This document shows, piece after piece, positions 9,347 through 22,300 of a DNA stretch of 33,203 bases. The stretch's first letter is position 1, and each line of letters starts with the position of its first letter. Origin of the DNA: Candidatus Saccharimonadota bacterium (GTDB taxonomy: Bacteria > Bacteroidota > Bacteroidia > B-17B0 > Aurantibacillaceae). The stretch lies in assembly GCA_903970545.1 (NCBI GenBank), contig CAJCJB010000074.1:1-33203 (forward strand), written 5' to 3'. The position numbers and the translations under genes are program-made. The notes below the pieces were generated by a model. That model made no database searches. It saw only the letters and a list, made by a program, of their open reading frames with translations, and was not told where the DNA came from.

Positions 9347-10085
9347 TTATCGTACTATAACCACCCGTTTATTTACTACGCCCTCTGCACTTTGCAAACT
9401 TATGTTATAAACACCCTCATTTAAGCTGCTTGAATCTATACTTGTTTTGCCGCTTATGGTTTGGCTTAATACAAGCTTACCAGTTACATCATAAACCTGC
9501 ATGGTTTGTTTGGTTGCGCTGTTTGGCTCTATAACAAAACTACCGTTGTTGGGGTTTGGGTAAATGTTTACCTCATTCTTGTTTGTACTAAATTGTTGCA
9601 CACCTGCAATGCAAGGGTCAGGATAAACATAAATACTAAAAGTACTATCCGGTCCCTGACATCCATTTAATGTAGCAGTAACTGTATGTAATAGTTGAAA
9701 CAATAGTTACCAAAGAAGTATTAACCGTTATAAAAGAAGGCACATCACCGGTTTGTGTACCACCTACTCCACCTAAACCAGTCCATGTAAACACTGGGTT
9801 CCCTCCGGAAGGAAGGAAAACAAAGTTTATGGGAGATGTAGTTTGATTAGGACAATAAAAATAATTTGGTACAGGGGCTACAAGTGGTGTGGGTTTAATA
9901 TTAATCGTATCTATAGCAGGTACCCCAACACAACCACTTAAAATGGGCGTGTATGTTACGACACCAATTTGGTTAGTTAAAGTCGTGTTGCTTGGTGCTA
10001 CATATGCAGCAGGTATACCCGTACCGAATACCGGCATACCTATATTCGTATTATTAGACTTAAAATTCAACATTAAGTTTAGGTT
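9347..10085 (-). pseudogene. Broken T9SS-secreted protein: 5'-truncated and frameshifted
   Basis: The remnant reads in two frames. The upstream part (10073 down to about 9690) encodes PKD-like surface-protein repeats (GTGIPAAYVAPSNTTLTNQ, then FTWTGLGG). The downstream part (about 9690 to 9347) finishes that domain (TVTATLNGCQGPDSTF) and ends in a clear T9SS sorting domain (NEVNIYPNPNNGSFVI ... GVVNKRVVIVR). The frames join if two bases are restored near 9684, where ACACAG has become ACAG. Nothing upstream supplies a signal peptide or start, and the coding stops next to the first 21-bp array. It was once part of a large secreted adhesin-like protein. Confidence 0.75.
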
Positions 10086-10104
10086 AACAAAGAGGGCGGT
10101 TTGG

Positions 10105-10244
10105 TGTTTTTGGCATCAACAGTGGCTATTTTGAAAGGAACCGCGGCTACTTCGAGAGAAACCGCGGCTATTTTGAAACAAACCGTGGTAATTTTGCAAT
10201 TAACCGTTGCTACTTAGAAAAAAACCGGCGTGTGCATAAAAATA
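10105..10244. repeat. 21-bp tandem array 1 with conserved leader
   Basis: Five to six units in exact 21-bp register begin at 10119, 10140, 10161, 10182, 10203 and 10224, with consensus near ACCGCGGCTATTTTGAAA plus three variable bases. The sequence TGTTTTTGGCAT...AGTGG (10105-10125) precedes and overlaps the first unit. It recurs at the head of the larger array near 21212. Because 21 bp is seven codons, one frame reads NRGYFER-type heptapeptides, but no start codon exists between its upstream stop (10085-10087) and the array. A hairpin (ATTCTTA/TAAGAAT, 10294-10312) lies downstream. The array fills the 312-bp gap before the DsbD-like gene. Confidence 0.8.
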
Positions 10245-10397: not shown

Positions 10398-12470
10398 ATG
10401 GCTAAATCGTTTTTAAGGAGTATTCTTTTCGTCTTTTTAATCTTAGGTCTCGTATCTCAGGTCTGCACCGCGCAAGATAAAGACCCCGTTAGTTTTAAAA
10501 TAGAAGCTAAAAAGGTTTCGGCTACCGAGTATGATATTGTTTTTAATGCCGCCATTGATGAAGGCTGGCATGTATATTCTATAGTGCCGGCAGATGGCGG
10601 ACCTAACCCTACCACGATTACCGTAAACAAATCAGCCGACTATGATTTGGTTGGTAAAGTAAAAGAAAGCAAGCCTATTGAAGAAATGGATAAGGTTTTT
10701 GATATGAAGGTGCAATACTTTAAGCACAAAGCCACCTTTACCCAACGCATAAAAGTAAAAACCGATAAGACCTTTAAAGTATCAGGTAAATACGAATATC
10801 AAACTTGTACCGATGAGAAGTGCATGTTTCCACCTGCTAAAAAATTCTCGCTTACTATTGAGCAGTTAGCGGTTAGCGTTAAGCCTTTAGCTGATAGCAG
10901 TAAAAAGTTGGCGGTAAACAGTAAACAAGATACAGCATACACGGTACAAGATACAAGCAAAAAAATTGCTACCGCTCAATCGACAAATCAACCAATCGAC
11001 CAATCTACCAATTCTTCTACAGATACTCCCTGGTGGATGATATTTTTAAAAGGAATTGGTTTTGGGTTAGCTGCTTTAATTACCCCTTGTGTATTCCCCA
11101 TGATACCTATGAACGTGAGTTTCTTTTTAAAGCGTAACAAAAAGCGCAGCGGTGCTATTAAAGAAGCTTTGTTCTTTATGCTCAGCATCATTGTTATTTA
11201 TACGGCGTTAGGTTTATTAATTACCGCCGTCTTCGGCGAAACCGCTTTAAACGCCATAGCCTCCAGCGCATCATTCAATATCTTCTTCTTTATCATGCTC
11301 ATTATTTTCGGTATCAGTTTCTTGGGTGCCTTCGAAATTGTATTACCCAACTCTTGGCTCAATAAAATGGATGCACAGAGCGATAGGGGTGGTTTCCTTG
11401 GTATCTTCTTTATGGCAACAACGTTGTCGTTAGTTTCATTCTCCTGCACAGGTATTTTTATTGGTAATTTAATTCCCTTGGTAAGCAACTCACCAACCGG
11501 TCCCTTCTTTGGTTTTTTAGGTTTTGGTTTAGGCTTTGCACTTCCCTTTGGTTTGTTTGCCATTGTACCCAGTTGGTTAAACAGCATGCCAAAATCGGGC
11601 GGATGGTTAAACACCGTTAAAGTTACACTTGGTTTGCTGGAATTGGCACTTGCCTTAAAATTCGCTTCCAATGCAGATTTGGTATATGATATGCACATTC
11701 TTACCCGCGAGGTCTTCCTTACCTTATGGATTGTTTTATTCGCCATCACCGGAATTTATTTAATGGGGTGGTTCAAACTTAGTCACGATACCCCTGCCCC
11801 TTTCATCACCATTCCCCGCTTGTTCTTCGCCATCTTTGCTTTTGCCTTCACGGTATATATGATTCCCGGCTTGTGGGGCGCACCTTTAAAATTACTAAGT
11901 GGTGTTATTCCTCCTTCCACCTATGCTGAATGGAAACCACAAACGGCAACGGTTGTGCAATCTGGGAATCAAAACTCATCTGCCTTAGCTACTAAAATGA
12001 TTGATGGTCCGGATGGATTAAAGGTTTTTCATAATGATTATGAAAGTGCTTTAGCCTATTCAAAAGAAGTGCACAAGCCATTGATGATTGATTTTACAGG
12101 CCATGCCTGCGCTAATTGCCGTAAGATGGAAGACAACGTGTGGGTAGAACCCGAAATAAAAAATATCTTGGCAAATGATGTGGTGATTGTTTCTTTGTTT
12201 GTTGACGATAGAAAAGAACTGGCTAAAACTGAACAGAAAGAAGTTGATTGGAGTGGAGATAAAGTAACCCTTGAAACCGAAGGAATGAAGTGGGGCTTTA
12301 TGCAATTAAGCAAATACAAAATAAGCTCTCAACCTTATTATGTTATTGTAAACGATGATGAATCGTTACTAAGCAACAATGGCATTGGTTACGATACGGG
12401 TAAAGACCTGCCTGTTTTTAAAACATGGCTTACCACTGCCATTGCCAAATACAAAGAGAAGCATCCTTAA
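10398..12470 (+). CDS. dsbD: DsbD-like thiol:disulfide interchange protein
   Basis: 690 aa with the three-part DsbD layout. A signal peptide leads to an N-terminal periplasmic alpha domain (to about residue 155, with YQTCTDEKCMFPP holding its cysteine pair). A Ser/Thr/Asn-rich linker follows. The central eight-helix CcdA-like domain has cysteines C231 (TPCVFPMIPMNVSFF) and C350 (SFSCTGIFIG). The C-terminal thioredoxin domain has the CxxC pair C571/C574 in HACANCRKM. It carries electrons from cytoplasmic thioredoxin across the inner membrane to periplasmic or c-type cytochrome maturation partners. A near-consensus TACCTTTA lies just upstream at 10372-10379. Confidence 0.92.
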   Translation: MAKSFLRSILFVFLILGLVSQVCTAQDKDPVSFKIEAKKVSATEYDIVFNAAIDEGWHVYSIVPADGGPNPTTITVNKSADYDLVGKVKESKPIEEMDKVFDMKVQYFKHKATFTQRIKVKTDKTFKVSGKYEYQTCTDEKCMFPPAKKFSLTIEQLAVSVKPLADSSKKLAVNSKQDTAYTVQDTSKKIATAQSTNQPIDQSTNSSTDTPWWMIFLKGIGFGLAALITPCVFPMIPMNVSFFLKRNKKRSGAIKEALFFMLSIIVIYTALGLLITAVFGETALNAIASSASFNIFFFIMLIIFGISFLGAFEIVLPNSWLNKMDAQSDRGGFLGIFFMATTLSLVSFSCTGIFIGNLIPLVSNSPTGPFFGFLGFGLGFALPFGLFAIVPSWLNSMPKSGGWLNTVKVTLGLLELALALKFASNADLVYDMHILTREVFLTLWIVLFAITGIYLMGWFKLSHDTPAPFITIPRLFFAIFAFAFTVYMIPGLWGAPLKLLSGVIPPSTYAEWKPQTATVVQSGNQNSSALATKMIDGPDGLKVFHNDYESALAYSKEVHKPLMIDFTGHACANCRKMEDNVWVEPEIKNILANDVVIVSLFVDDRKELAKTEQKEVDWSGDKVTLETEGMKWGFMQLSKYKISSQPYYVIVNDDESLLSNNGIGYDTGKDLPVFKTWLTTAIAKYKEKHP

Positions 12471-20035: not shown

Positions 20036-21163
20036 ATGAAATTAGTAATACTTGGTGCCGGTGCTTCTTATGATGCATTTTATTGGTATAGAGATGAAAA
20101 TACTTTTAAGAATTGGAGAGCACCATTAGCTAATGAGATTTTTGAACAAAGACCTGATTTTTTAAATATTATTGATACATATCCAGGTTCTCATAGCGTA
20201 TTTAGCCAAATAGGTACAGTAGGAGATATAGAAGCTTTTTTCCAGGAACGTTATGAAAATTCTGTTAAGCATGGTAACATTAATGTAGAAAAGCAATTAA
20301 TAAACTTAAAGTTCTTTTTACAGCATTTGTTTTATCAAATATCGGAGAAGCTAAATTATGCTGGTAATAGCAATTTAGTGAAACTTATTACCCATATAGA
20401 TGACTATATTGCTAAAACAAAAGAAGATGTTTTAATAATTAGTTTTAATTATGATTTACTCATGGAACGTGCACTTTGTGAGCATTATTATGGTAAGGCT
20501 AAAAGCGATTATGATATAGGAGATTACTTATTAAACAAGATTAAGCTTATAAAACCTCATGGTTCCTGTAATTGGTTTAGGGTATCTTGTATTAATCAAG
20601 ATACAATAACGCCTCGTATGTCGTTTTCTGATTATTTGTTTAAGAATAATTTCACTCAAGAATATATAAATAGACAACTTGAAAAAGAATTTATCTGTGC
20701 ACCATATAGTGCTGGAAGCTTCCATAAAGGGACTAATAATAATTTTTATATGTTTCCTCAAATACATATTCCTTTAAAAGAAAAGGATGAGTTTACTATG
20801 CCTAAAGAACAAGAAGATTATTTAAATGAATACTTACCGAAAGTTGATGAAGTATTGATTGTAGGATGGAAGGGAAGTGAACAACATTTTAATAGAAAAT
20901 TGAAAGAACATTTAGGGAATAAAACTTTAAAAATCCAAGTTGTTAATGGTCCAAATCATATAAACCCAGCAATAGTTTTATATAATTTAAAAGATTCTAT
21001 AAATACAAATAATTCCAGTTTGTTTTTGGATGATTACTCTTTAGAGGGGATAAATGGCACAAAAGAATTTCTTACCTTTCTTTCAGAAAATAAGCAGGAA
21101 GGTTCTCTTACTTCCTTTTTAATTAAATTGGAACAAGGAAGAACAAAATCAATTTTTGATTAA
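20036..21163 (+). CDS. SIR2-like NAD-binding domain protein
   Basis: 375 aa, stand-alone. The motifs of the SIR2-like (STALD-type) fold are visible: the nucleotide-binding loop LGAGASYD (residues 6-13), PLANEIF (30-36), ISFNYDLLMERAL (135-147) and KPHGSCNW (173-180), which carries the histidine of the catalytic region. Such proteins hydrolyse NAD or act as NAD-consuming effectors in several bacterial anti-phage systems (Thoeris, DSR, SIR2-HerA). No partner (HerA, pAgo, TIR or NLR) lies nearby, so a defence role is inferred from the family only. It is clearly richer in A+T than recA, and it ends 48 bp before the leader of the large 21-bp array. It is probably acquired DNA. Confidence 0.75.
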   Translation: MKLVILGAGASYDAFYWYRDENTFKNWRAPLANEIFEQRPDFLNIIDTYPGSHSVFSQIGTVGDIEAFFQERYENSVKHGNINVEKQLINLKFFLQHLFYQISEKLNYAGNSNLVKLITHIDDYIAKTKEDVLIISFNYDLLMERALCEHYYGKAKSDYDIGDYLLNKIKLIKPHGSCNWFRVSCINQDTITPRMSFSDYLFKNNFTQEYINRQLEKEFICAPYSAGSFHKGTNNNFYMFPQIHIPLKEKDEFTMPKEQEDYLNEYLPKVDEVLIVGWKGSEQHFNRKLKEHLGNKTLKIQVVNGPNHINPAIVLYNLKDSINTNNSSLFLDDYSLEGINGTKEFLTFLSENKQEGSLTSFLIKLEQGRTKSIFD

Positions 21164-21211
21164 TACTACCTAATCCCCCACAACCCTCTGCCAACTTTAA
21201 AGCAAGCAAGC

Positions 21212-21749
21212 TGTTTTTGGCATAAATAGTGGTAAAATCAACGTTATGCTTGCATCGCTCGTTAGCATCCTTACATCGCTTCACGCGATGCTTGAATGAT
21301 TGAAGATTTTGCTTACATCGCTTTCAATTATCCTTGCATCGCTTCACGCATTGCTTGAATGATTGAAGATTTTGGTTGCATTGTGTTTAATTATCCTTGA
21401 ATGATTAAAGATTTTGCTTGCATCGCTTTCAATCATCCTTACATCGCTTCATGCGTTGCTTGAATGATTGAAGATTTTGGTTGCATTGCGTTCAATTATC
21501 CTTGCATGCTTTAAAGCTATCCTTGCATCGCTTTCAATCATCCTTACATCGCTTCACGCGATGCTTGAATGATTGAAGATTTTGCTTGCATCGCGTTCAA
21601 TTATCGTTGCATCGCAACAAGCTGTTCAAGCATCGCGTTAAGCGGAGGGAGGTTGCTGCAAAATTATGCTTGCATCGCGTTCGATTATCCTTTCATCGCT
21701 GCAAGCGATGAAAGTATCGCTACGAGCTATGTGAGGTTGCTTCAAACCG
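21212..21749. repeat. 21-bp tandem array 2 with conserved leader
   Basis: From 21246 to 21749 the sequence divides into 24 consecutive units of exactly 21 bp, without a single register slip; a 25th starts at 21750. There are three unit types: A near TTGCTTGCATCGCTTTCAAT, B near ATCCTTACATCGCTTCACGC, and C near ATGCTTGAATGATTGAAGAT. They follow one another as B-C-A, a 63-bp higher-order repeat seen from 21267, 21330, 21435 and 21540. After 21603 the units diverge. Hairpins form within it: CATCGC/GCGATG (21274-21290, again 21547-21563) and a perfect 10-bp stem TTTCATCGCT/AGCGATGAAA (21691-21713). The leader TGTTTTTGGCAT...AGTGG (21212-21232) matches that of array 1. Confidence 0.9.
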
Positions 21750-21863
21750 ATGTCTGGTTGGGGTTAGAGCATTAACGAAACGTTAAAGAACACTTCAGCA
21801 TAGCTTCGGATGATGTTTATTCTCAGCTACGTGATAAGGGAAATGCATAAAGCTATCGGCAAG

Positions 21864-21898: not shown

Positions 21899-22252
21899 TA
21901 AGCAGGCCGTTCTATCGCTGCGGGAATACCCGCAGAGGAAAGTCCGGACAACACAGAGCACCTAACCTTTTGAAAAAGAGGGTATGCAAAGGGCAACTTA
22001 GCATAACAGATAGTGCCACAGAAAATATACCGCCATGCTTCGGCAGGGTAAGGGTGCAAACGCGAGGTAAGAGCTCACGCACAACGGCAGCAATGCTTTG
22101 TGAGGAAAACCTTAGGGGTTGAAAAGCCAAATAAGTTGCGGTTTAAGCAGCTCGCTTATGTTTACTTCGGTAAACGCCGCAATGGGTAGGCCGACCAGAT
22201 AAATGATAGAAGCCGCGCAAGCGGAACAAAACCCGGCTTACAGGCCTGCTTA
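21899..22252 (+). ncRNA. rnpB: RNase P RNA
   Basis: About 354 nt, the catalytic RNA that matures tRNA 5' ends. The hallmark conserved segments appear in order: GAGGAAAGTCCGGAC (21936 onward), ACAGAAAATATACCGCC near 22018, GGTAAGGGTGCAAACG and GAGGTAAGAGCTCACGC near 22060, and AAATGATAGAAGCC followed by ACAAAACCCGGCTTACAG near the 3' end. The terminal P1 helix pairs TAAGCAGGCC (21899-21908) with GGCCTGCTTA (22243-22252). It is a type A RNA. An open frame on the opposite strand inside it is not a gene. A T-rich stretch follows the 3' end. Confidence 0.97.
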
Positions 22253-22300
22253 TTTTTTGTTTTACGAAGTAATGTCTCTTAAAGAGAGGTTATATAAACC

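Follow-up and report, generated by a model that had tools for sequence, protein, structure and literature searches.

Two arrays of 21-bp units within the stretch of 33,203 nucleotides analyzed here (the window) were found to begin with the same leader, which is best read as a conserved, non-coding DNA motif of approximately 20 bp representing the first repeat, or edge, of one array subfamily. With moderate confidence, this subfamily is placed in a family of non-coding 21-bp satellite repeats that occur in intergenic regions throughout the genome and change by whole-unit slippage or recombination, in which position, period, and symmetry are kept and the sequence is not. The window belongs to a 3.1-Mb draft genome consisting of 393 contigs (G000), whose closest relative is a sister species of the same genus (G005). 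So far, the array family is known from only one genus, and no account of a family of arrays with a fixed 21-bp period was found in the literature (open-licence PMC papers).

Leader copy A (TGTTTTTGGCATCAACAGTGG; positions 10105–10125, plus strand) is the first 21-bp unit of array A, which comprises approximately five units of the GGCTATTTTGAAAGAAACCGC type (10126–10234, plus strand). Array A is bordered by a gene region featuring a T9SS-type sorting domain, recognized by eye (9347–10073, minus strand), and is followed downstream by a DsbD-like gene (10398–12470, plus strand). Leader copy B (TGTTTTTGGCATAAATAGTGG; 21212–21232, plus strand) is located directly before array B, consisting of approximately 24 units of the ATCCTTGCATCGCTTTCAATC type (21233–21760, plus strand). 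This array lies between a SIR2-like gene, also recognized by eye (20036–21163, between recA and the array), and the downstream RNase P RNA gene rnpB (21899–22256, plus strand; RF00010, 199 bits). It features higher-order repeats of 42 and 63 bp, and a dyad symmetry z value of 3.6. The flank upstream of leader B, approximately 42 bp in length (21170–21211, plus strand), is still alignable in the sister species, where rnpB is 95% identical and a different gene is located between the array and rnpB. Both the DsbD-like gene and rnpB served as anchors for comparisons of orthologous sites. Furthermore, a Flavo-1 RNA (RF01705) was located at positions 1028–1100 of the window (minus strand).

The two leader copies are identical at 19 of 21 bases, with the next base also differing (C/T); hence, the sequence-only reading was right about the shared leader, whereas its count of 18 matches in 20–21 bases needed correction. 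Dinucleotide shuffling of the window (100 replicates) gave an expectation of 0.04 matches with up to three mismatches, compared to two actually observed, so that a chance origin of the pair is unlikely. Behind both leaders, the 21-bp units continue in register. Similarity between loci is limited to the leader unit (on average, 17.2 of 21 matches, versus 6–9 of 21 in every flanking unit) and drops sharply at both leader ends. A pattern search for TTTTTGGCATNNANAGNGG located the leader at six array loci in G000, namely twice on the window's contig C74 and on contigs C209, C259, C163, and C319, the last of these carrying a second, degraded copy 63 bp (three units) inside the array. Three copies were found in G005 (contigs C4, C57, and C43), with those on C4 and C57 being copies of one locus. 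The sequence-only reading had advised asking what follows the leader in relatives, and every copy at the six G000 and three G005 loci indeed precedes a 21-bp array. Leaders are directional and always occupy one array edge, but they do so in a minority of cases, most arrays having no leader at all.

A sequence-only profile search added weak matches only, the best of which (17.2 bits, contig C51 of G005) also lies in an array region. Beyond the genus, the leader was matched exactly, among the species genomes and viral contigs, only in one Prolixibacteraceae contig and three viral contigs, all without an array. Among the one-mismatch matches in 199 relatives whose flanks were examined, a clear array was present only in G005, while the match in another genome (G001) showed a weak coding-type signal. 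Between the two species, leader identity amounts to 80% at non-orthologous loci, compared to 62% at fourfold-degenerate sites of dsbD (G000 versus G005). Together with the sharp similarity edges, this suggests that the leader motif is likely under constraint; late copying between the species could also account for its conservation.

The extent of the array family was determined by a de novo scan based on autocorrelation of sampled stretches, in which the leader was not used and a threshold of 0.58 was applied. In 400 kb of G005, 26 strong arrays were detected, all featuring a period of 21 bp or multiples thereof except one of 20 bp, and no period other than 20 or 21 (or multiples) exceeded the threshold there. 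Eleven arrays were detected in 191 kb of G000. These densities of approximately 65 and 58 arrays per Mb, respectively, correspond to approximately 265 arrays in the genome of G005 and 180 in that of G000, provided that the samples are typical. A few arrays were seen in G001 and G006, and none in 160, 129, and 160 kb of G002, G003, and G004, respectively, for which the density in G005 would predict 8–10 arrays each. The median array length is approximately 14 units; neighboring units are contiguous, with a mean identity of 0.61, and the base composition equals that of the flanks (A 0.31, T 0.32). Units are mostly locus-specific, only 1.3% of the array pairs exceeding the 99.9% null, and arrays with a 20-bp period are rare. 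The arrays are intergenic, the exceptions being a signal within a gene of G005 and another within the dsbD-like gene of the window. Since the genes flanking the arrays may be divergent, convergent, or tandem, a promoter or terminator role tied to orientation was rejected.

Several arrays adjoin a multi-copy gene family of unassigned function (...AGHHEWEMSKDM...NLPSTSTSK...; stretches L006, L108, L111, L113, L133, L144, and L152). A second dispersed intergenic element, approximately CTTTTTTAACGGTCGATTTTAACAAAAAAACGGTCAA, contains two or three CGGT motifs spaced 21 bp apart and was counted 32 times in G000, 46 times in G005, and 18 times in G001, with almost no copies in G003 and G006 (examples are L276, L286, and L296). 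It usually precedes, by approximately 85–250 bp, a gene whose reading direction points away from the element. About half of its best-scoring copies in G000 and G005 have a neighboring array, and several of the 20-bp arrays adjoin it. In addition, sequences similar to the Flavo-1 RNA of the window (GTTAGGGAT...GCCCGAC) were noticed by eye in the flanks of several G005 arrays (L131, L132, and L137).

Comparison of the two species revealed that the relative also possesses an array at 8 of 14 tested orthologous sites, usually composed of unrelated units, the expectation estimated from array density being approximately one in ten intergenic regions. The conserved positions are those at dsbD, rnpB, nuoA, SPOR/OmpA, an ABC gene, prfC/START, miaB, and one TPR-like locus. 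At dsbD, rnpB, and nuoA, the G005 array is found in the corresponding position, is built from other units, and lacks the G000 leader. Units at orthologous sites mostly resemble one another no more than expected by chance, with some residual similarity at prfC/START. At the remaining six sites, no array was found in the other species, and gene order had changed at several of them. The SPOR/OmpA arrays differ in period by one base at an orthologous intergenic site (20 bp in G000, L153:10770–11095; 21 bp in G005, L201:919–1289), indicating that the repeat period is able to change and does not depend on codons. Some loci share unit families, namely array A with the leader-bearing arrays on C163 and C209, array B with that on C259, and L126 with L130 in G005, which supports copying of arrays from site to site.

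The degree to which a unit agrees with the remaining units of its array, followed along the array length, amounted to 0.48, 0.54, 0.58, 0.60, 0.59, 0.60, 0.60, 0.57, 0.52, and 0.46. The profile is thus symmetric, with a uniform middle and degenerate edges, and not polarized from the leader. Identities at lags of 42 and 63 bp often exceed those at 21 bp. The symmetric profile and the higher-order repeats of 42 and 63 bp point to whole-unit slippage or unequal crossing-over, and homogenization of the arrays by whole-unit change is supported. The G005 arrays on C4 and C57, paralogous copies of one array, differ in unit number, each species being represented by one genome. Whole-unit change explains how the period is inherited while the sequence is not. 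The features by which minisatellites and satellites are recognized, i.e., contiguous head-to-tail units of approximately 10–60 bp, a homogenized center, degenerate edges, and whole-unit change, were found in the arrays.

Averaged units were dyad-symmetric above column-permuted controls (mean z of 1.9 over 46 arrays, 27 of them with p < 0.05), as exemplified by TTAATTtgcAATTAA on C209 and CTCTTCgtgcGAAGAG upstream of rnpB in G005. Covariation of paired positions among units was stronger for the dyad axis than for alternative axes (p = 0.0002; paired p = 0.002), values for which the kinship of units is ignored; quasi-palindrome or hairpin-templated mutation could produce such covariation. No sub-period of AA/TT/TA at 10–11 bp (10.5 bp) was observed within the arrays, and intrinsic curvature is therefore not indicated. 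Intrinsically curved DNA, which is recognized by AA/TT runs phased at 10–11 bp, was rejected as a candidate for this reason.

Two proposals of the sequence-only reading were not supported, the one being a translated leader or a coding origin. As it had pointed out, copies A and B differ only synonymously in the frame VFGINSG (three third-codon changes), and this frame follows shortly after a TAA with no ATG in between, as can be read directly at both loci (10085–10087, six to seven codons before leader A; 21198–21200, four to five codons before leader B). However, the synonymous pattern was lost once further copies were included. The distinct copies read VFGINSG, VFGINSG, IFGIHSG, VFGIISG, IFGINRG, IFGIHSG, IFGINSA, and VFGVNSD; these eight contain at least six changes at first or second codon positions and six at third positions, and six of them alter an amino acid besides the first V/I. 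Variable columns comprise four of seven third positions versus five of fourteen others (Fisher p = 0.40), with variation extending beyond third codon positions. Moreover, TTT and GGC show no variation at their third positions, and seven of nine reading frames hit a stop within 16–28 codons, no open frame with a synonymous pattern running through leader and array. A coding or formerly coding leader was rejected on these grounds and because of the 20-bp arrays, one of which lies at a site where the sister species has 21 bp; the leader thus appears to be conserved as DNA. Heptapeptide repeats, translated now or formerly, would agree with a unit of seven codons, the synonymous differences in the window, the frame on C259 that stays open for at least 90 codons, and the proportionally greater change of third positions in the VFGINSG frame than in the other two, which leaves some room for an ancient coding origin. 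Set against the evidence from the other copies, this explanation is largely contradicted already and is the most improbable of those considered. The other proposal is a system adding or swapping units at the leader, in which an enzyme (a reverse transcriptase, an integrase, or a telomerase-like protein) would add 21-nt units there. It could explain why a conserved, directional leader at one edge stands beside locus-specific units of fixed length, but unit similarity peaks mid-array and falls symmetrically, showing no polarity, and the leader is missing from most arrays. A reverse transcriptase was matched once each in G000, G005, and G006; G003, in which no array was detected, likewise yielded one match, and Y1 transposases are absent from the array-rich G005. 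Among the genomes compared, the presence of arrays is not paralleled by that of any transposase or reverse transcriptase, for which reason spread driven by a reverse transcriptase or Y1 transposase was rejected, and unit writing is very improbable.

Arrays transcribed into RNA hairpins, each unit forming a small stem-loop that acts on neighboring mRNAs or as a small RNA, would account for the self-complementary units and their covariation, but the genes flanking the arrays occur in all orientations, and no Rfam match was obtained in the arrays of the window. Although DNA and RNA readings fit the present data alike, we regard this alternative as unlikely, and a DNA-structural role of the arrays may be put forward as the leading guess. 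Purely neutral minisatellites deserve more weight, their probability being somewhat below even: one ancestral 21-bp repeat would have spread and persisted by slippage alone, with the period inherited, the palindromes arising by hairpin-templated mutation, and the leader being an old edge unit. This explanation shares the evolutionary half of the favored one and denies constraint. Unit families common to several loci, whole-unit higher-order repeats, the inverted-U homogeneity along arrays, a composition equal to the flanks, and the occupation of all gene orientations agree with it, whereas the leader identity between species (80% versus 62% at fourfold sites), positions kept over that same divergence, and dyad symmetry with covariation across arrays of unrelated units do not. 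A bolder and rather doubtful possibility is that hundreds of position-conserved intergenic elements are defined by geometry (21-bp, two-turn spacing and dyads), with units freely rewritten and read by a protein or a DNA structure sensing phasing and symmetry, the leader being the entry site in one subfamily.

Like bacterial minisatellites and VNTR loci, the arrays are intergenic, consist of head-to-tail units of tens of bases, and change by whole units; in contrast, nearly all of them (likely 180–265 per genome) have one exact period, their units are mostly of unrelated sequence, and many positions are retained from one species to the other. In eukaryotes, satellite DNA undergoes concerted evolution, in which monomer length is conserved and sequence turnover is fast, with a homogenized center, degenerate edges, and higher-order repeats. 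The arrays share all of these features, but are short and scattered through intergenic regions of a bacterial chromosome. A leader beside a repeat array is reminiscent of CRISPR; however, instead of identical repeats with unique spacers, contiguous units approximately 61% identical to the next were found, growth is not polarized at the leader end, and many arrays with locus-specific units occur per genome. BOX elements of Streptococcus pneumoniae combine a conserved end module with a variable number of tandem modules, are dispersed between genes, and are base-paired (PMC3049150), features that have parallels here. However, boxB is one recognizable module and boxC an end module (PMC3049150), whereas here units differ by locus, no tandem module is common across loci, no common 3' module was seen at the arrays, and the leader, as an end module, is present at six G000 and three G005 arrays and absent from most. 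Borg tandem repeats likewise form many loci per genome in a single lineage, each with its own unit, but are perfect, A-enriched, of many lengths, recently formed, and located in genes in about half of the cases (PMC9879509); the present arrays are degenerate, unbiased in composition, intergenic, fixed at 21 bp, and in many cases old enough to be common to both species.

According to the favored satellite-family explanation, arrays would spread by copying between intergenic sites and then grow, shrink, and homogenize in whole-unit steps via replication slippage or unequal recombination, a process retaining the period despite drift of the sequence. Units at the edges would escape homogenization, and the leader is proposed to be retained at the edge because it is also constrained. 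More tentatively, selection or a mutational mechanism might maintain the geometry of two helical turns and self-complementary units. The arrays, if functional at all, may be DNA-structural or protein-binding elements rather than peptide genes or a memory of acquired units, and heptapeptide open reading frames that gene prediction reports for genomes of this kind are likely to be spurious.

In bacteria, tandem repeats usually occur in small numbers and vary widely in unit length. In the two species studied here, nearly all strong arrays have one period and mostly unrelated sequences, and some members of the genus seemingly have no arrays. Whether a repeat period is selected or merely inherited thereby becomes directly testable in a bacterium, and the arrays offer a natural setting in which concerted evolution of the satellite type can be studied outside eukaryotes.
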